Source: Paenibacillus terricola
GTDB taxonomy: Bacteria > Bacillota > Bacilli > Paenibacillales > Paenibacillaceae
Length of the DNA stretch: 64,000 nt
NCBI RefSeq assembly: GCF_014779765.1
Contig: NZ_JACXZA010000003.1
Location: 744,001 to 808,000, forward strand
Reading direction: 5' to 3'
The notes below the pieces were generated by a model that saw only the letters and a program-made list of their open reading frames with translations, was not told where the DNA came from and made no database searches. A program made the translations under genes and the position numbers. The number at the start of each line of letters is the position of its first letter. Position 1 is the first letter of the stretch. Positions 8,571 to 17,676 of this stretch are shown piece by piece.

Positions 8571-10940
8571 TCAGTTGAGCTCGGCTACCGTCACTCCGGC
8601 TCCGCCTTCCCCATACTGTCCAAGCCGGTAAGACTTCACATGCTTATGCCGACGCAGATAATCTTGAATGCCCGTGCGGAGCACCCCGGTTCCTTTGCCG
8701 TGGATCAAATGTACGCGTCCGAATCCAGCCAAGAACGCTTCATCAAGGAAACGATCCGCTTCGATCAGCGCCTCATCAAGCGATGCGCCCCGCAGATCCA
8801 GCTCCATCGTTGCATTCTCGTCGCGCGTACGCTTCAGGCTTGCCGCCTGCTTCGGCTGCTGCTGCTTCGCAGCCGCTTCATTCGTTTTCAGCAGCTCCAG
8901 ATCATCCAGCGCAACCTTCATCTTCATAATGCCAAGCTGCACCAATGCTTCCGAGCCAGCCAGTTCAATCACAATGCCCTTCTGATTCAGGCTGTACACA
9001 CGAACCTCATCCCCTGGCTCAATTCGAGCCGGCTTCGCTCCGCGTTTGCCTCCTGTTGGCTTCGGACGATGCAGCTCTGGCGCTGCTTCATCCAGTCTGC
9101 GACGCGCTTCAATCAGCTTATGCTCCTTGACAGATGCGCCTTCCTCCATCGCCAGCTTGCGCAGGTCCGCAATGATCTGCTCTGCCTCTGCTCTCGCCTT
9201 CCGAACCGCTTCGCGTGCGTCATCCTGCGCTTTGCGCAGCAGCTTGTCGCGCTGTTCCTCGAAGCGTTCGCGTTCTGCTTCATGCTTCGCACGAAGCTCT
9301 TCGAGCTCGCGGCGGAGCGCTTCAGCTGTGTTGCGCTCGTTCTCGGCGCTAAGACGATCCTCTTCGAGCGATGCGATCATGTTCTCGACGCGTGTATCTT
9401 CTTCGCTGACCTCACCGCGCGCATGATCGATAATCGCCTTCGGCAGTCCAAGTCTCTCCGCAATAGCAAACGCGTTGCTTCGGCCAGGAACGCCAACAAG
9501 CAGCCGGTAAGTCGGGCTAAGCGTCGCTACATCAAATTCCATGCTGGCATTGATGACGCCTTTGCGATTATAAGCATAAGCTTTCAGCTCGCTATAGTGA
9601 GTGGTCGCGATAATCCGTGAACCAAGCTTATGAATGTGTTCGAGAATCGCGATTGCAAGCGCCGATCCTTCTGCCGGGTCTGTACCTGCGCCAAGCTCAT
9701 CAAGCAGGACCAGACTCTTGGGCGTCATTGCCTTCAGAATTCGAATAATATTCGTCAAATGACTGGAGAAAGTACTAAGGTTCTGCTCGATGCTCTGCTC
9801 GTCGCCGATATCGGCATAGATCGCGTCGAATACGCACATCTGGCTGCCATCTTCAGCCGGAATGAATAAGCCTGACATCGCCATCAAGCTCAGTAAGCCT
9901 ACCGTCTTCAACGATACCGTCTTACCGCCTGTGTTCGGGCCGGTGACGATAATGGCAGAGAACGAATTGCCGAGTTCAACATCCGTTGGCACAACAGCTT
10001 CGGTTGCAAGCAGCGGATGACGGCCGCGCTTCAGCTTCAGGAAGCCGCGGTCATTCATTCGCGGCAGCGTTGCACGCATTTCGTGCCCAAGCCGTGCCTT
10101 CGCGAATGCGAAGTCGAGCGCGCCAAGACCTTCAGCATCGGCAAGCAGATCTTCGCTCACATCAGCTGTAAGGGCGGTAAGTTTCTGCAGCACTTTCTCG
10201 ATCTCGCGCTCTTCATTGGCGCGCAGTTCACGCAGCTTGTTATTCATCGAGACGATGACTTCCGGCTCGATGAACATCGTTGCGCCGGAGCTCGATTGGT
10301 CATGAACGATACCGCCAAAGTTCGAGCGGTACTCGGATTTGACAGGAATAACATAGCGGTCATTGCGCAGCGTAATAATGGCGTCCTGAAGCATTTTCTG
10401 AACAGAGCTTGAACGAATCATCTGCTCCAGCTTCTCGCGAATGCGGGACTCGCCGTTGCGAAGCTCGCGTCTGACCGCTGCCAGCTCAGGGCTTGCCTGG
10501 TCCATGACTTCCGCGTTCTCGTCAATACAAGCAAGAATCGCATCCTCTGTTGGCTTATGCTCAGACAGCGGCTCGGCGATTTCCGCAAGCAGCGGAATCG
10601 GATCCGCGTCATGCAGCTGCAGCACATGCTTCTTCACTCTGCGGCCAGCTCGAATCGTCTCCGCAATCTCAAGCAGCTCCGCCGGATTGAGCGTACCGCC
10701 AATGCGGGCGCGCTTGAGCGACATCGACACGTCCGCGATTCCTCGAAAAGGCGGCGAACCTTTGAGCCGGTCCGCCTTGTAAGCCTCATCTGTCGCCTGC
10801 AGCGAGTGCTTGACGATCGAGAGATCGGGGCTCGGCTTCAATTGTTCGATCACTGCTCTGCCAAGCGGCGTTGCGGCGTGAGCCGAAAGTTTATGAATGA
10901 TTTTATAATAATCCATTGTATGCAAAATTTTGTGATCCAA
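8571..10940 (-). CDS. mutS2: MutS2: ribosome rescue / anti-recombination ATPase with Smr domain
   Basis: A 789-residue MutS2 (B. subtilis form has 785). It has a MutS-like core with Walker A GPNTGGKT (about 335), Walker B LVLLDELGAGTDP and a signature QSIEQNLSTFSSH, a long charged coiled coil (about 515-610) and a C-terminal Smr domain (LDLRGASLDEAL... HGKGTGVLR). MutS2 is known as an anti-recombination protein and, in Bacillus, as a factor that acts on collided ribosomes. The start is TTG at 10940, with GAGAGGAG 12 nt upstream, giving the family start MDHKIL. It heads the operon with the DUF350 gene. Confidence 0.95.
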   Translation of the reverse strand: MDHKILHTMDYYKIIHKLSAHAATPLGRAVIEQLKPSPDLSIVKHSLQATDEAYKADRLKGSPPFRGIADVSMSLKRARIGGTLNPAELLEIAETIRAGRRVKKHVLQLHDADPIPLLAEIAEPLSEHKPTEDAILACIDENAEVMDQASPELAAVRRELRNGESRIREKLEQMIRSSSVQKMLQDAIITLRNDRYVIPVKSEYRSNFGGIVHDQSSSGATMFIEPEVIVSMNNKLRELRANEEREIEKVLQKLTALTADVSEDLLADAEGLGALDFAFAKARLGHEMRATLPRMNDRGFLKLKRGRHPLLATEAVVPTDVELGNSFSAIIVTGPNTGGKTVSLKTVGLLSLMAMSGLFIPAEDGSQMCVFDAIYADIGDEQSIEQNLSTFSSHLTNIIRILKAMTPKSLVLLDELGAGTDPAEGSALAIAILEHIHKLGSRIIATTHYSELKAYAYNRKGVINASMEFDVATLSPTYRLLVGVPGRSNAFAIAERLGLPKAIIDHARGEVSEEDTRVENMIASLEEDRLSAENERNTAEALRRELEELRAKHEAERERFEEQRDKLLRKAQDDAREAVRKARAEAEQIIADLRKLAMEEGASVKEHKLIEARRRLDEAAPELHRPKPTGGKRGAKPARIEPGDEVRVYSLNQKGIVIELAGSEALVQLGIMKMKVALDDLELLKTNEAAAKQQQPKQAASLKRTRDENATMELDLRGASLDEALIEADRFLDEAFLAGFGRVHLIHGKGTGVLRTGIQDYLRRHKHVKSYRLGQYGEGGAGVTVAELN

Positions 10941-11104: not shown

Positions 11105-11470
11105 ATGCATTTTCTAGGCCATGTCGTTCGATTCATTGTCGCAGCGATTGTGCTCATGCTTGTTGGTTTTATCGTTCCTCAATTCAGCGTCGGCGGATTC
11201 TGGAGCGCCTTGTTCCTTGCGCTAGTTATCGCCGCTCTGGGCTGGATTGTTGAAGGTATTTTCGGTACGAGGGTGACACCATTTGGACGTGGCATCGTCG
11301 GCTTTATCGCCAGTGCCGTGGTCATATGGGTCGCGCAGTTTATCGTTGGAGGCGTTCACGCAACGTTGCTTGGTGCTATCCTTGCTGCACTAGTCATCGG
11401 AATCGTGGACCTGTTCATCCCGATCAGCACACCGTTCGAGGCAGGACGCAGCGAACGGCACCGCGACTAA
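11105..11470 (+). CDS. YvlD-like membrane protein (phage holin superfamily IV)
   Basis: A 121-residue integral membrane protein with four hydrophobic helices (about 6-25, 29-52, 59-82 and 86-106) and a short Ser/Glu/Arg tail. The fold matches small membrane proteins like B. subtilis YvlD, annotated as phage holin family 4 superfamily IV; there is no phage context here, so lysis is unlikely. AAGGAGGAGG is at 7-10 nt. It stands alone on the plus strand, followed by a hairpin and the cupredoxin gene. Confidence 0.75.
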   Translation: MHFLGHVVRFIVAAIVLMLVGFIVPQFSVGGFWSALFLALVIAALGWIVEGIFGTRVTPFGRGIVGFIASAVVIWVAQFIVGGVHATLLGAILAALVIGIVDLFIPISTPFEAGRSERHRD

Positions 11471-11691: not shown

Positions 11692-12072
11692 ATGAATATG
11701 AAGAAATCAATCGCAGTCAGCGCGCTGGCCGTCATGCTTACGCTGGCGCTTAGTGCCTGCGGATCCAGCTCTACAACGATGAATGCTAACATTTCGGAGC
11801 CATCCGAAGCGACAGAACAACTCGTAATCCATGCGAAGAACTGGGAATTCGATCAAGAGGAATACAAGGTGAAGTTAGGCGAAGCTGTTAAAATCTCGGT
11901 AGAATCCGACTCCGGCTTCCACGGCGTGAAGATCAAAGACACGAGCTTCGACATTAAGACGAACGAATCCAAGATTCTGTCGTTCGATAAAGCAGGCACT
12001 TACGAAATCTACTGCAACATTGCGTGCGGCACCGGCCATACGCGCATGAAAGCGAAGATCATCGTGGCGTAA
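11692..12072 (+). CDS. CuA-type cupredoxin lipoprotein (cytochrome c oxidase subunit II-like)
   Basis: A 126-residue exported lipoprotein: signal peptide MKKSIAVSALAVMLTLALSAC with a lipobox LSAC, then a cupredoxin fold. Near the C-terminus CNIACGTGHTRM keeps the spacing of the CuA ligands of cytochrome c oxidase subunit II (Cys-x3-Cys-x3-His-x2-Met), and an upstream FHGVKI supplies the second His. No membrane helices or oxidase genes are near, so it is a free CuA-domain protein anchored outside the membrane, possibly for electron transfer or copper delivery. The copper genes (ycnI, copCD) lie 7-12 kb away. GAGGGGAG is about 11 nt before the ATG; a second ATG is two codons later. Confidence 0.8.
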   Translation: MNMKKSIAVSALAVMLTLALSACGSSSTTMNANISEPSEATEQLVIHAKNWEFDQEEYKVKLGEAVKISVESDSGFHGVKIKDTSFDIKTNESKILSFDKAGTYEIYCNIACGTGHTRMKAKIIVA

Positions 12073-12141: not shown

Positions 12142-12205
12142 AAAAGGACAGTCACATCACGATGCGGGACTAATCGTACCGCCTTCCGTGAGTGCCTGTC
12201 CTTTT
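12142..12205. terminator. Bidirectional terminator-like inverted repeat
   Basis: 10-bp arms AAAAGGACAG (12142-12151) and CTGTCCTTTT (12196-12205) around a 44-nt loop, between the converging cupredoxin and ZapA-fusion genes. Each arm supplies a T run on one strand. Confidence 0.6.
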
Positions 12206-12221
12206 GTCTTTCATGCGACGC

Positions 12222-14987
12222 TTAGCTGGATTCGATTAATTCGATCCACTCATTGTACTCCGTCTGCAGCTTCGTGTATTCCTGTTGAAGCTTGCTCAGC
12301 TCTGTGCGCAGCATATTCGTCTCACGTTCATGCTCGATGCGTGCCTCTTCCAATGTTTGCAGCTGTGCGCCAAGCTCAGAAGACTGCTCCGCCTCCGCTG
12401 CCGCAGCTTGCCGATATTGATCGAGCTCGGCCTGCAGTGCCTCCAGATGCGCATCGGATTGCTGAACCTTCGCCTCAAGCTTCGATTCACGCTCCTGCAC
12501 TTGCGCTTGCTTCTTCGCCATCTCCTCCGCGGATTGCTGCGCCGCTCGCTCAAGCTCAGCAATGCGTGAAGTCAGTCGGCCATGCTCTTCTTGCTGGAGT
12601 GCAAGTAGACGGGACGCTGCCGCTGCATGCTCGATCTGATGCTCCAGATGCTCGCCCAGAAGCGTAAGCTCTTGCTCAAGGGCATCGGACTTATTCACCA
12701 GATTCTCGCTTGCTTGAACAGCGTTAATCAACTCGGCTTGCTTCGCTTCCAGCTCAAACTGTTTCTCTTCAAGTTCAGCTTGCTTCGAATGAAGCTGCTT
12801 CTCCATCCATTGCTGCTTCTGCATCAACTCCGAGATCTCGCCAGCAAGCGTCTGCTCCCGTTGCTGCAGCTGTTCGCCTAAGCGTCTAATCTCACCACGC
12901 AGCGTCTCTTCCTGCTCCATTGCTGCCATAAGCTGCTCATCGGATTCCGCCGTTTGGCGGTCCCAATATTGGCGTGCCTGATCCAGCTGCGATTGGTACG
13001 ACTCGTTCTGTTCTTCCAGCTGCTTTCGCAGACTCCGCTGCACCTCTTCAGCTTCAGCCAACAGTTCTTGCTGTTCTGATGCCTGCTGCTCCATCTGACG
13101 CGCCTGCTCATCTGCAATTGTGCCATATTGCTCGCGGAGCTCCGCCATGGCCTCACGGTGCTGGGACTCCAAGCGATCCACATGTTCAATGCACTGCTGT
13201 TCCAGTGTGTTCAGCTGCTCTTGGCAGCGTTGTTCAACCGCTTCCAACTGCTCATCATTCGCGCGATGGGCGGCTTGAAGGCGTTCCTCATAGCGGCCGT
13301 TCTCAGCGGCAAGCTGCTCTTGATGCTCCTGCTTAACGGCAGCAAGCTGCAACTCGAATTCACGATACGTCTCCGCAATGTGCTGCTCATGTTCATATCC
13401 AGCCGCCGCTGCTTGCTCCTCATAACGACGAACTGCTTCATCCAGCTGCGCTTGATGCTGCTTCGCCATTCGATCAAGCAGCTCTTGGTGCTGGCTCTCT
13501 AGCTCAGCAACATATTCGGTCAGCTCATTCTCGAACGCTTCGGTTTTCGCTTTCAATTGTTCATCCGCCGCTGCTTGCTGTCTAGCTGCCACGCGTTCAA
13601 GTTCAGCCTGATGCTCTTCACGCGTACGTACCTGCTCCGCTTGATGCTTAGCATTCACCTGCTCCAGTACAGCCTTATGTTCCGCCGCTATACGTTCCAG
13701 CTCTGCCGTATGTTCGGCAATCGCAAGCTCCAACACTTCGCTATGCTCCGCATTCATACGCTCCAGAACTACACGATGCTCAGCATTCGTATGTGTCAGT
13801 TCAGCCGTACGATCAGCCTCGATACGAGCAAGCTCGCTCTGGTGCTGGGCAGCCAGTTGTTCCAGCTCAAGCTTCATCAGCGCAAGCTGCTCGCTGCATT
13901 CTTCATTCGCAAGCTCCAATACTGCAGCATGCTCAGCTCCTGTGCGCTCCAATATGGATGCATGCTCCGTCTTCATCCGTTCCAGCGCGGCCGCATACTC
14001 TGCAGCATGCTGTTCCACTTCCGTCTGCGCGGCAGCAAGCTCTTCAATCAGCTGTTCCTCATCTGCTCGAGCCTGTACCAGCTCCGCTTGCAGCTTCTCT
14101 TCATTCTGACGAAGCGCCTCGAGCTCTACGGTAACTGTCTCACTGCTTGTACGCAGCGCTTCAAGCTCAGCAGTCAACTGTTCTTCGCTCTTCCGAAGCA
14201 ACGCAAGCTCGGCAGTCAGCTTCTCACGGTCGCGATCTGCCGTTTCGCCGCGTGCGACAATCTTGCGGTCATATTCATTGCGCAGCTCTTGCAGCTTCTT
14301 CTCAGCGCTATTACGCTGCTCTGCCAGCAGACGGTCTGCGGCAGCACGCTGCTCCTGAAGCTTGCGCTCCGCCTCCGCGCGGGCTGTGCCCGATTGGCGG
14401 CCAAGCTCTTCGCGCTGTGCAGCAAGCGCCTTCGCGTGCTCTTCAGCAGCGAGCTCCAGCTTCTGCTGTGCCTCTGCTTCAAGCTCGGCAATGCGCTGCT
14501 CGTGCGCTTGCCGAGCTTCCTCAAGCTGCTTGCTCGCAGCGGCCTCCGCCTGCTCCAGCTGTAAACGCAGCTCCGCAACTAACGCTTCTGCTTTCTCAGC
14601 CTGCTCACGTTCAACACGTGCGCAAGCTTCCACGCCGGCCTGCTCCGCTGCAGCAACTCGCTGCTCGGCTTCTGCCAGCATGTCCTGCCATTGCGCTGCA
14701 TCTGTCCGAATTCGCTCCAGCTCTTCCGCAAGCACGCCATTGCGCGCTTCCTCTACGAGCAGACGATCCGTCTCCCGCTGCAAACGCATGACGTCTTCCG
14801 CCATATGTACCGCTGCAAGCACAGCGATCTTAGGCATATCAAGCCTCGGGTATCCTTTGGCCAGCTTATGCATATTCTCGTCGACCAGCGCCGCTACCCG
14901 CTTGATATAATCGGTGCTGGACCGGCCTGTCAGCTTATATTGATATCCGTATATGTCAACCGTTACGCGTGTCCGATCGGCATCCAT
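12222..14987 (-). CDS. ZapA domain fused to an ~840-residue coiled coil
   Basis: The first ~85 residues are a ZapA domain (RVTVDIYGYQYKLTGRSSTDYIKRV..., DENMHKLAKGYPRL, AVHMAEDVMRL), the FtsZ-bundling factor of the divisome. Free ZapA is normally around 85-130 residues. Here it continues for ~840 more as an unbroken Glu/Gln/Ala/Leu/Arg-rich coiled coil with no membrane segment. Periods change along it: 14-residue units near 253-322 (e.g. SEEQLTAELEALR), 11-residue hendecads near 331-472 (e.g. AELERIAAEHK) and again in the second half (e.g. HQEQLAAENGR). The ATG at 14987 or the TTG before it both fit AGGAGG upstream. It lies next to pheT, where zapA also lies in Bacillus. FtsZ binding is inferred; the role of the long tail is unknown. 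Confidence 0.85.
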   Translation of the reverse strand: MDADRTRVTVDIYGYQYKLTGRSSTDYIKRVAALVDENMHKLAKGYPRLDMPKIAVLAAVHMAEDVMRLQRETDRLLVEEARNGVLAEELERIRTDAAQWQDMLAEAEQRVAAAEQAGVEACARVEREQAEKAEALVAELRLQLEQAEAAASKQLEEARQAHEQRIAELEAEAQQKLELAAEEHAKALAAQREELGRQSGTARAEAERKLQEQRAAADRLLAEQRNSAEKKLQELRNEYDRKIVARGETADRDREKLTAELALLRKSEEQLTAELEALRTSSETVTVELEALRQNEEKLQAELVQARADEEQLIEELAAAQTEVEQHAAEYAAALERMKTEHASILERTGAEHAAVLELANEECSEQLALMKLELEQLAAQHQSELARIEADRTAELTHTNAEHRVVLERMNAEHSEVLELAIAEHTAELERIAAEHKAVLEQVNAKHQAEQVRTREEHQAELERVAARQQAAADEQLKAKTEAFENELTEYVAELESQHQELLDRMAKQHQAQLDEAVRRYEEQAAAAGYEHEQHIAETYREFELQLAAVKQEHQEQLAAENGRYEERLQAAHRANDEQLEAVEQRCQEQLNTLEQQCIEHVDRLESQHREAMAELREQYGTIADEQARQMEQQASEQQELLAEAEEVQRSLRKQLEEQNESYQSQLDQARQYWDRQTAESDEQLMAAMEQEETLRGEIRRLGEQLQQREQTLAGEISELMQKQQWMEKQLHSKQAELEEKQFELEAKQAELINAVQASENLVNKSDALEQELTLLGEHLEHQIEHAAAASRLLALQQEEHGRLTSRIAELERAAQQSAEEMAKKQAQVQERESKLEAKVQQSDAHLEALQAELDQYRQAAAAEAEQSSELGAQLQTLEEARIEHERETNMLRTELSKLQQEYTKLQTEYNEWIELIESS

Positions 14988-15169
14988 CAAAGCAATATCC
15001 TCCTAGTTGTAATTAAAGTCGCATTTCGTGCTGCAAGCTTGCCTGTGACTATTTCATCAGACGGTGTGTGAGTCAGCGACTCCTTGAAATTAGGGTCGTA
15101 GGCGGTAGTATACATTAACCCAATCCACCTACTCCTAAAAGATTCGGAAGCTTATACCTGATTTAGTGG

Positions 15170-15234: not shown

Positions 15235-17676
15235 CTACTTCCGCAATTCTGCACCAAAAGTTTGCTCAATTGCCGTAACGACTGCGCCATGCAGCTCCGT
15301 TACCTCTTCATCCGTCAGCGTACGCTCTGCATGACGGTATACCAGCGATAAGGCAACGCTCTTTTTGCCAGCGCCAAGCTTCTCACCTGTGTACACATCG
15401 AAGACACGAATCGACTCGAGCAGACCAACTGCAATCTCGCGCGCCTTCTCAAGCAAGCGGCCAGCTTCAACTGCCGAATCAACGACGACTGCAATATCGC
15501 GTTCCATTGCTGGGTAACGAGGCAGCGTCTGATAAACAATCGCACTATTCGCATACTCATACAGCGGAGCTAGCTCCAGCTCAGCTGCGTACGTATCCGG
15601 CAGATCCATCTGCTGCTGCAGCTGCGGATGCAATTGACCGACATAACCGAGCGTAACTTCGCCAGCTTCCGTCTGCAGCTTCACAGCTGCGGTACGGCCT
15701 GGATGGAATCCTTCTGGAGTCGCTGCTTCGTAACGAATGCGGCTGCTAACGCCAAGCGTCTGCATGACCGTCTCGATAATGCCTTTTGCATGATAGAAAT
15801 CATAAGCTACAGCTTTCTGATTCCACGATGCCTGCACGGCATTGCCCGTCAGCAGCAGGCCGAAGCGATGCTTCTCATGTGGAAGCTGAGTCAGTGTCTC
15901 TTCTTCCGTGTGGTAGACGCTGCCAAGCTCGAATACGGCAAGGTTGTCGTTCTTGCGATTGCGGTTGTACACCGCCATATCAAGCAGTTGAGCGAGCAGC
16001 GACGTGCGGAGCACGCTGCGTTCTTCGCTCATCGGCATTGCCAGACGGATCGGACGCACATCGCCGGTCAGCGCTGGGAACAGTGCCGTACGCTCTGGAC
16101 CCGTGAACGAATAGCTGATCACTTCGTTTAGTCCGGAGTCCGTCAGACGTTTGCGCAGCTCGCGGCGAATCGCTTGCGGTTTCGTGAGTGCGCCTGGCGT
16201 CGTACTGCCTTCGATTGGCGTTGTCGGAATGTTGTCATAGCCGTACAGTCGAGCTACTTCTTCAATGAGATCAACATCGCGTGTAATATCGCCACGGCGC
16301 GTAGGCACCGTAATCGTGAATGTGCCGTTGCCATCGATGTCGCCTTGGAAACCAAGACGCGTGAAGATCGCTTCTACTTCTAGCTTCGACAACGACGTGC
16401 CGAGGTACGAATTGATTTTGCTCAGCGTAACTTGGACAACAGCAGGCTCATGCGTTGCTGCAACAGCTTCAACGATGCCCTCTGCTACATGTCCGCCTGC
16501 AATCTGTTCGAGCAGCGAAGCTGCGCGGTCAAGAGCAGGAATAACGCGGCTTGGATCAACTTCCTTCTCGAAGCGTGCGCTCGATTCAGAACGAAGGCCA
16601 AGCTGACGCGATGTACGGCGCACCGTGCTGCCGTCGAAACGAGCCGATTCCAGAATAATGTCTGTCGTATCTGCCGTTACTTCGCTGTTTCCGCCGCCCA
16701 TAACACCAGCCAGCGCGATCGCTTTCTCACTGTCTGCGATAACAAGCATTTGCGGCTCAAGCTTACGCTCTTGATCGTCCAGCGTCGTAAGCGTCTCGCC
16801 TTCCTGCGCAAGACGAACAACGATCCGGCCGCCAGCTACTTTGGATGCGTCGAACGCATGAAGCGGTTGACCGTACTCGAGCATAACGTAGTTCGTAACG
16901 TCAACGACGTTGTTGATCGGACGAATGCCTGCCGCCATCAGACGGTTCGCCAGCCAGAGCGGCGACGGAGCGATCTTAACGCCACGAATGTAGCGTGCTG
17001 TATAATGCGAACACAGTTCCTTCGCTTCGATCGATACATTCAGGTAGGAGGATGCCAGTTCCGGCGAATCCATAATCGCTGTCTTCGGCAGCTTTATTTC
17101 ACGTCCCGTAAGCGCCGCAACCTCATAAGCTGCGCCCAGCATGCTGAGGCAGTCCGAACGGTTCGGCGTCAGGTCGAGCTCAAGGACCTCATCATCGATT
17201 GCAAGCGTCTTGCCGATCGGTTGACCGATTGGCGTCTCCGCAGGCAGGACGAGAATGCCTTCTTGCTGTTCCTTCGGCAGCAGCTTCTCGTTGAGGCCAA
17301 GCTCCTTCGCCGAGCAGATCATGCCTTGCGATTCAACGCCGCGCAACTTCGCGCGCTTGATGTTCAGATCGCCCGGCAGCTTCGCGCCTACCGTTGCGAC
17401 CGGCACCTTCTGGCCAGCATCCACATTGCGAGCGCCGCATACGATTTGCAGATTTTCACCCGTACCAACATCCACTTGGCATACATTGAGCTTATCTGCG
17501 TCGGGATGCTTTTCCTTCGATACAACATAACCAACAACAACCCCGGATACGCCTTTGTTGCGCGATTCAACCACATCGATCTCGATGCCGCCGCGCGTCA
17601 TCTGCTCCGCAATCTCCTTCGCAGTGAGATCCGAAACATCTATATATTCATTCAACCATTGATAGGATACATTCAT
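15235..17676 (-). CDS. pheT: Phenylalanyl-tRNA synthetase beta subunit
   Basis: An 813-residue beta chain (B. subtilis has 804) of the alpha2-beta2 enzyme that charges tRNA-Phe. Domains in order: N-terminal fold MNVSYQWLNEYIDV, a tRNA-binding EMAP-like domain (about 40-155, VVGYVVSKEKHPDADKLNVC), the B3/B4 editing domain (about 200-400), the B5 domain (about 405-480), a class II-like core (SVLRTSLLAQLLDM near 555, AVFELGSVY near 580) and the C-terminal ferredoxin-like anticodon-binding domain (RYPAMERDIAVVVD). It starts 59 nt after pheS ends. Confidence 0.97.
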   Translation of the reverse strand: MNVSYQWLNEYIDVSDLTAKEIAEQMTRGGIEIDVVESRNKGVSGVVVGYVVSKEKHPDADKLNVCQVDVGTGENLQIVCGARNVDAGQKVPVATVGAKLPGDLNIKRAKLRGVESQGMICSAKELGLNEKLLPKEQQEGILVLPAETPIGQPIGKTLAIDDEVLELDLTPNRSDCLSMLGAAYEVAALTGREIKLPKTAIMDSPELASSYLNVSIEAKELCSHYTARYIRGVKIAPSPLWLANRLMAAGIRPINNVVDVTNYVMLEYGQPLHAFDASKVAGGRIVVRLAQEGETLTTLDDQERKLEPQMLVIADSEKAIALAGVMGGGNSEVTADTTDIILESARFDGSTVRRTSRQLGLRSESSARFEKEVDPSRVIPALDRAASLLEQIAGGHVAEGIVEAVAATHEPAVVQVTLSKINSYLGTSLSKLEVEAIFTRLGFQGDIDGNGTFTITVPTRRGDITRDVDLIEEVARLYGYDNIPTTPIEGSTTPGALTKPQAIRRELRKRLTDSGLNEVISYSFTGPERTALFPALTGDVRPIRLAMPMSEERSVLRTSLLAQLLDMAVYNRNRKNDNLAVFELGSVYHTEEETLTQLPHEKHRFGLLLTGNAVQASWNQKAVAYDFYHAKGIIETVMQTLGVSSRIRYEAATPEGFHPGRTAAVKLQTEAGEVTLGYVGQLHPQLQQQMDLPDTYAAELELAPLYEYANSAIVYQTLPRYPAMERDIAVVVDSAVEAGRLLEKAREIAVGLLESIRVFDVYTGEKLGAGKKSVALSLVYRHAERTLTDEEVTELHGAVVTAIEQTFGAELRK

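Follow-up and report, generated by a model that had tools for sequence, protein, structure and literature searches.

An extended form of the division protein ZapA is encoded in the window, the 64,000-nucleotide stretch of Paenibacillus terricola DNA analysed here (contig NZ_JACXZA010000003.1, positions 744,001 to 808,000 of the forward strand). The gene, zapA, occupies 12222..14987 of the minus strand as an uninterrupted frame of 921 amino acids (aa) read from an ATG at 14987. Its product consists of a ZapA head (residues 1-85, 14733..14987, minus strand), a coiled-coil rod (residues 86-896, 12300..14732, minus strand), and a conserved C-terminal tip (residues 897-921, 12225..12299, minus strand), and this architecture was found across the whole order to which the genome belongs, the Paenibacillales (hereafter the order). 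ZapA is usually treated as a small, widely conserved protein; at 921 aa the window protein is roughly 8-10 times as long as normal, in line with the figure of about eight given in a first-pass annotation of the same DNA. The explanation preferred here, at slightly less than an even chance, is that of a ZapA crosslinker bearing a putative oligomerising C-terminal segment at the end of a rod that is constrained in helical phase and free in length.

The ZapA head

When the head was scanned alone, PF05164 was matched with 57.6 bits over residues 7-74 (cut-off 23.8), which bears out the N-terminal ZapA domain proposed in the first-pass annotation. ZapA was the only Pfam family returned for the head at E values up to 1, with DivIVA absent; the scan of the full-length protein returned no Pfam family and is weak evidence on this point, since ZapA was missed there too. 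The PDB structure closest in sequence was that of ZapA 2mmv (E 2.7e-16). A genome-wide profile search gave one PF05164 match in the whole 6.8-Mb genome (56.7 bits), so that ZapA is single copy. The head region is weak in the window protein's own single-sequence model, and support for the ZapA fold comes from a 149-aa relative in the order. That protein was modelled with 8 sequences (pLDDT 85) as a hairpin, one helix, a long helix at residues 52-109, a break, and a tip helix at residues 116-148. In a Foldseek search of this model against the PDB, 7 of the first 8 matches were titled ZapA, with only the first (2mmv) at E < 0.001; the remaining match, 1t3u, carries a title without ZapA and is presumed by us to be the Pseudomonas aeruginosa ZapA.

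The conserved tip and the C-terminal helix of ordinary ZapA

The tip of the window protein, LSKLQQEYTKLQTEYNEWIELIESS, comprises the last 25 or so residues and follows the consensus LQxEYxKLQxEYNEWIELIE; it is absent from the first-pass annotation. For comparison, 141 order proteins, including that of the window, were extracted from chosen genomes; one was cut by a contig end, leaving 140 complete proteins of 123-1740 aa (median 922.5). A loose pattern located a tip within the last 45 residues of 136 of these, the other four were recognised by eye, and a Trp-containing tip ends 139 of the 140. In the aligned tips one Leu is present in all 140, the Trp in 139, two Glu in 138 each, and an Asn in 136, and the core spacing L, Y, L, Y, W, I reads as a regular heptad of bulky residues. 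A profile built from 17 tips had the ZapA C-terminus as its best match in 21 of 21 genomes, the lowest score being 16.5 bits (genome G296). No second place comparable to the tip was seen in these 21 genomes, where next-best matches reached at most 13.3 bits, and the tip was accordingly rejected as a general motif. Against the PDB the tip profile gave three matches only, none with an E value better than 0.33; the C-terminus of ZapA 2mmv came second (E 1.3).

Ordinary ZapAs of the Bacilli end in a helix such as ADEYFRLKQEYDELLKLIEEE. A tip profile built from order tips alone was run against an ordinary set, defined as the 30 best-scoring ZapA loci of the class sample; in 23 of them the C-terminal region scored 11.6-24.7 bits, while 630 shuffled and reversed controls reached at most 4.9 bits. 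By this measure the tip resembles the C-terminal helix of ordinary ZapA. The first half of the ordinary helix was also matched near the head in some short or less derived members, with up to 16.2 bits. We read these matches as a sign that the rod grew inside the C-terminal helix, probably with duplication. Among Bacilli outside the order, the ZapAs L331 (258 aa) and L332 (219 aa) hold shorter coiled-coil insertions and again close with a tip-like end, which suggests recurrent insertion at the same place.

Since the tip resembles a helix that ordinary ZapA already has, self-association of ZapA at the rod end is favoured over a new partner. A tether, in which the tip would bind a different partner (a nucleoid protein, a membrane protein, or a septal synthase) and the rod would link the Z ring to it at a distance, was nevertheless weighed; it corresponds to the idea in the first-pass annotation of a rod that could reach from the Z ring toward the nucleoid or envelope. 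In its favour, the polar tip positions (E, K, Q, N) vary scarcely more than the core does, beyond the apparent need of simple dimerisation, and in E. coli ZapA connects ring and chromosome by way of ZapB and MatP (abstract of PMC7246612). The likeness of the tip to a segment of ordinary ZapA, which leaves a new partner unneeded, and the lack of a comparable second match to the tip profile in the 21 genomes searched both speak against a tether, and it is regarded as unlikely, though not remote.

The rod

In the window protein the rod comprises about 810 residues and is free of proline. Hydrophobic power of the tail at a period of 3.667 residues was 18.9, above the maximum of 500 shuffles (8.6). 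The hendecad blocks described in the first-pass annotation were recovered: at residues 331-472 (13572..13997, minus strand) identity at lags 11, 22, and 33 is about 3-fold over expectation, and at residues 510-620 (13128..13460, minus strand) it is 2.1-2.7-fold, the lag-11 values alone being 3.2-fold (measured over residues 330-472) and 2.7-fold. Its 14-residue block, a double heptad at residues 253-322 (14022..14231, minus strand), was likewise borne out by a lag-14 identity 3.5-fold over expectation. Heptad stretches were recognised from hydrophobic periodicity near residues 251-338 and 680-921. A single-sequence AlphaFold model of the monomer, of low confidence, placed helices at residues 87-244, 250-529, 532-678, and 685-920, separated by three short breaks. 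The earlier picture of a possibly stiff rod of roughly 100 nm or more is supported as regards a mostly helical tail, the stiffness being conjectural, and at 0.15 nm per residue a length of about 125 nm would be expected from this low-confidence model. Tandem DNA repeats with a score of at least 30 were absent from the window's zapA. An open frame of 335 aa runs antisense to the rod at 13557-14564 on the plus strand and most likely just mirrors the repeats of the coding strand.

Among 124 order proteins of at least 350 aa, the best rod period was heptad-like in 61, hendecad-like in 58, and intermediate in 5, and proline was almost absent from the rods (0.26 per 1000 residues). The frequency of hendecad-like rods is a point in favour of a scaffold, in which rods would pack laterally to form a network at the division site, in the manner of the FilP/Scy hendecad rods, with the ZapA heads docked on FtsZ; PMC9858780 provides a precedent for a division protein with a hendecad-extended rod. 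In the charge spectrum averaged over 94 rods, all of the 25 highest values fall near 11 and 5.5 residues. Long charge periods are expected of myosin-like staggered packing. None of those examined, up to 60 residues, was among the 25 highest values, so that a myosin-like charge repeat was rejected, and the scaffold, against which this result counts, is considered improbable.

Distribution and length range

A profile search of the family Paenibacillaceae gave a ZapA match in 293 of 295 genomes, with open frames of at least 275 aa among the matches listed. Across the order, one match was obtained in each of 119 genomes, in open frames of 129-1746 aa, of which 104 were at least 250 aa and 92 at least 500 aa; among the shorter frames, those of 140 and 402 aa are situated close to the end of a contig. 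The class sample gave a match in 146 of 151 genomes, and the 134 outside the order had frames of 74-258 aa; one additional partial match, below the cut-off, falls in a 1456-aa frame outside the order. A scan of named genomes covered 369 relatives, of which the best 80, each titled Paenibacillus, Cohnella, or Bacillus, were kept. Closed frames of 355-1495 aa were present at 78 of these loci, and 76 of the 78 end in the tip; the other two frames hold runs of N.

A single uninterrupted frame from the head to the end was present in all 140 complete order proteins, which come from separate assemblies, and in 76 of the 78 closed named loci, the two exceptions being those with runs of N. Two possibilities had been raised in the first-pass annotation, namely that relatives carry a normal-length ZapA beside a separate coiled-coil gene, and that a sequencing error joined two genes. 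The first is not what relatives have, as all 140 proteins are one frame, short ones (from 123 aa) included. The second, taken here as a sequencing or assembly error joining zapA to a separate coiled-coil gene, is ruled out by the unbroken frames in separate assemblies and retains a negligible probability; an artefact or a gene fusion was thus rejected, as relatives carry one unbroken chain.

Of the very long frames reported outside the order, those traced in the DNA did not hold up. A phylum search gave 666-aa ZapA frames for L327 and L328, whereas the fetched DNA has frames of 107 aa (table 11) in both, so that the two results disagree. Two further frames, of 354 and 267 aa, look like ordinary ZapAs in surrounding open sequence and were set aside, and frames of 266 and 248 aa were the others noted outside the order among the matches listed. 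Within the order sample, the shortest rods occur mostly in the smallest genomes (2.4-3.1 Mb). Genome size was rejected as a driver: the Spearman coefficient was 0.47 over 69 hand-chosen genomes, uncorrected for kinship, and 0.03 within one family.

Evolution of the rod

Insertions and deletions (indels) were collected from congeners at least 70% identical, which yielded 51 distinct genus-and-size indels with well-matched flanks; the events are not fully independent. Of those up to 60 residues long, 30 of 34 had a size of 4, 7, 11, 14, 15, 18, 22, 25, 33, 40, 44, or 49 residues. The indel periodogram peaked at 3.66 residues, and the value observed at 3.667 exceeded 5000 of 5000 uniform draws, both for the 34 and for all 51 indels. 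In these natural indels the phase of the coiled coil is mostly kept while its length changes. Inserted segments had a median identity of 0.57 to adjacent DNA, compared with 0.40 for random rod segments, and 7 of 39 were at least 80% identical to it, so that at least some of the growth took place by tandem duplication.

The ratio of nonsynonymous to synonymous divergence (dN/dS) was 0.040 for the head, 0.153 for the rod, and 0.029 for the tip in 23 hand-picked close pairs, some sharing a genome, and shows all three parts to be under purifying selection. In the same pairs the rod also had a higher synonymous divergence than either head or tip. A PheT tree of 81 genomes, midpoint-rooted with no outgroup, has mostly short rods on its early branches (proteins of 123-408 aa, one of 680), with long rods nested. 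ZapA length tracks this tree: the log-length difference between nearest neighbours was 0.33, as against a mean of 0.75 and a minimum of 0.52 in 2000 shuffles.

These data also bear on length drift, in which head and tip alone would matter and the rod would be a near-neutral spacer, resized by repeat slippage as long as the helix stays unbroken. Length varies 14-fold across the order, short forms recur within long clades, rods evolve faster than head and tip, and slippage between repeats could alone give in-phase sizes, so that in-phase indels are no proof of selection on phase. Set against this, dN/dS of the rod is no higher than 0.15, its proline content is close to nil, lengths follow the tree, and frames of at least 500 codons are present in 92 of the 119 genomes; drift of this kind is assigned a low probability.

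Proposed function

In gammaproteobacteria, ZapA is an antiparallel tetramer in which a bundle of C-terminal helices joins the FtsZ-binding dimer heads, and E. coli ZapA requires tetramerisation in order to function (PMC12216130, PMC12754632). In the window protein and its relatives, the head, the periodicity of the rod, the conservation of the tip, the mostly in-phase changes of length, and the order-wide distribution are observed, whereas FtsZ binding, a dimeric rod, self-association of the tip, and long-range crosslinking are inferred. For the ZapA crosslinker proposed here, the ordinary C-terminal coiled coil would have been expanded, at least in part through in-frame tandem duplications by which the helical phase is preserved. 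A dimer of heads would bind FtsZ and so give a parallel two-stranded rod, and through the tip, the probable counterpart of the ordinary oligomerising helix, two dimers would be paired, either end to end or overlapping in antiparallel fashion. The resulting dumbbell could link FtsZ filaments over tens to hundreds of nanometres, beyond the short reach of ordinary ZapA; if the tip retains the role of the ordinary helix, the rod lengthens the reach between linked filaments. For the order as a whole, we propose, with rather less than even confidence, that its FtsZ crosslinker has become a crosslinker or tether that bears a rod and reaches over about 5 to about 245 nm, both ends being fixed and the reach evolving in whole helical turns.

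Several results weigh against the crosslinker explanation and the likenesses on which it draws. The match to the ZapA equivalog NCBIfam NF010724 (69.9 bits, E 1.2e-19) is below the 80-bit cut-off, and by this score the window protein is taken to be a ZapA-domain protein and not an NF010724 equivalog. The full-length model has a mean pLDDT of 60 and was made of a monomer with no alignment. With the tip profile, 7 of the 30 ordinary ZapAs scored -1.4 to 7.4 bits, five of them within the control range. The reciprocal test was weak: of the 140 order proteins, 89 had the best place of the ordinary-helix profile at the tip, 27 had it at the head-proximal helix, and 24 within the rod, with a median of 3.6 bits at the tip, and the likeness may therefore have arisen by convergence of a short heptad motif. 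In the 123-aa protein of G296 the tip is degenerate and lacks the Trp, though it passes the loose pattern. Four of the 34 indels are off phase (sizes 1, 3, 6, and 12), the list of in-phase sizes was compiled after the sizes had been seen, the 49-residue indel fits heptads but departs from the 3.66 period, and support for 7 and for 11 as single periods is absent or marginal. Single alignment gaps of up to 329 residues separate congeners at least 70% identical, so that exact spacing is not essential, and such wide variation between close relatives argues against a fixed-length ruler. Finally, short forms (138, about 177, 251, and 149 aa) recur inside long-rod clades.

If the order does have such a rod-bearing crosslinker or tether, its Z ring would be organised over distances beyond the usual width of 80-100 nm and thickness of 40-50 nm, values taken from PMC12754632. 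The natural series of ZapA lengths, from 123 to 1740 residues with the ends conserved, is a ready-made experiment on how the reach of a crosslinker shapes the Z ring.

Comparison with known systems

Ordinary ZapA (PF05164; PDB 2mmv, 4p1m, 1w2e, 9isj) shares with the window protein the head sequence, the fold as modelled in the short relative, the single copy found here, and a C-terminal helix like the tip, and differs in length (74-258 aa for members of the class sample outside the order, against 921 aa) and in having no rod between head and C-terminal segment. The DivIVA-derived actinobacterial rods FilP and Scy, the latter of more than 1000 residues, are similar in joining a small division domain to a long hendecad-rich coiled coil (PMC9858780); the window head, however, matches ZapA alone and not DivIVA, the rod is closed by a conserved tip, and the lineage is that of the Bacilli. 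The long-rod ZapA parallels the DivIVA-FilP-Scy rods in an unrelated division protein. No published account of such a ZapA was found in the literature searched on ZapA, hendecads, and coiled-coil length (titles and the starts of abstracts, with subscription papers mostly outside); ZapA is unmentioned in the available text of PMC9858780, a paper on hendecads, and nothing relevant was seen by title among papers on coiled-coil length. ZapB, which according to published abstracts acts with ZapA as its partner in E. coli, is a separate protein there, whereas head and coil form one chain here.

EzrA is a long helical protein of the Gram-positive Z ring, and ZapB is a coiled-coil protein. The EzrA profile PF06160 had no match at the window's zapA in a genome-wide search at E up to 0.001, the head being of another kind, and the one match that the genome did give, of 22 bits, falls on another contig. 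Among 60 genomes of the order, 24 were matched at the same E limit and 7 of the 60 passed the curated cut-off, with no score above 72 bits; outside it, 34 of 57 Bacilli genomes exceeded 100 bits. We read the matches in the order as coiled-coil cross-matches, and the order seems to be without a true EzrA. Some other Bacilli with a short ZapA are also without a score above 100 bits; as the lack is not specific and EzrA-poor Bacilli outside the order keep short ZapAs, loss of EzrA alone does not explain the giant ZapA and was rejected as its cause. In B. subtilis, zapA is synthetically lethal with ezrA (PMC12754632), and in an order seemingly without a true EzrA a larger share of the work may fall to the giant ZapA. 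Extension of FtsZ alongside ZapA was rejected, as the main open frame of FtsZ is of ordinary size (372-443 aa) in the 39 genomes, of 40 searched, that gave a match. One order genome of 1.4 Mb and 91% completeness (G318) has a ZapA with tip and no FtsZ match, probably owing to genome incompleteness.

Gene neighbourhood

The zapA frame is open over 12222-14990 of the minus strand, with an alternative TTG start at 14990, and the ATG is preceded by AGGAGG at 14999-15004 as read from the window DNA. By Pfam, its upstream neighbour is pheT (15235..17676, minus strand) and its downstream neighbour mutS2 (8571..10940, minus strand); pheS, recognised by translation of the open reading frame alone, is upstream on the same strand as zapA. 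The pheT-zapA position pointed out in the first-pass annotation is therefore correct for the window, and it recurs throughout, with pheT upstream in 80 of 80 order loci and mutS2 downstream within the fetched stretch in 74. The gene order pheT-zapA-mutS2 is also that of Bacillus. Between zapA and mutS2 lie two plus-strand genes, one encoding a cupredoxin-like protein (11692-12072, convergent with zapA) and one a holin-superfamily-IV-like membrane protein (11105-11470). Matches to them on the opposite strand recur in 70 and 73 of the 80 order loci, respectively, so that the neighbourhood is conserved.

A terminator scan of the window reported none, the site described next included. An imperfect inverted repeat, AAAAGGACAG ... 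CTGTCCTTTT, was found by eye at 12143-12205, between the convergent zapA and cupredoxin-like genes, and could be a candidate bidirectional terminator. The named genomes nearest by ZapA head were those of Paenibacillus kobensis, P. cellulosilyticus, P. xylaniclasticus, and P. curdlanolyticus.

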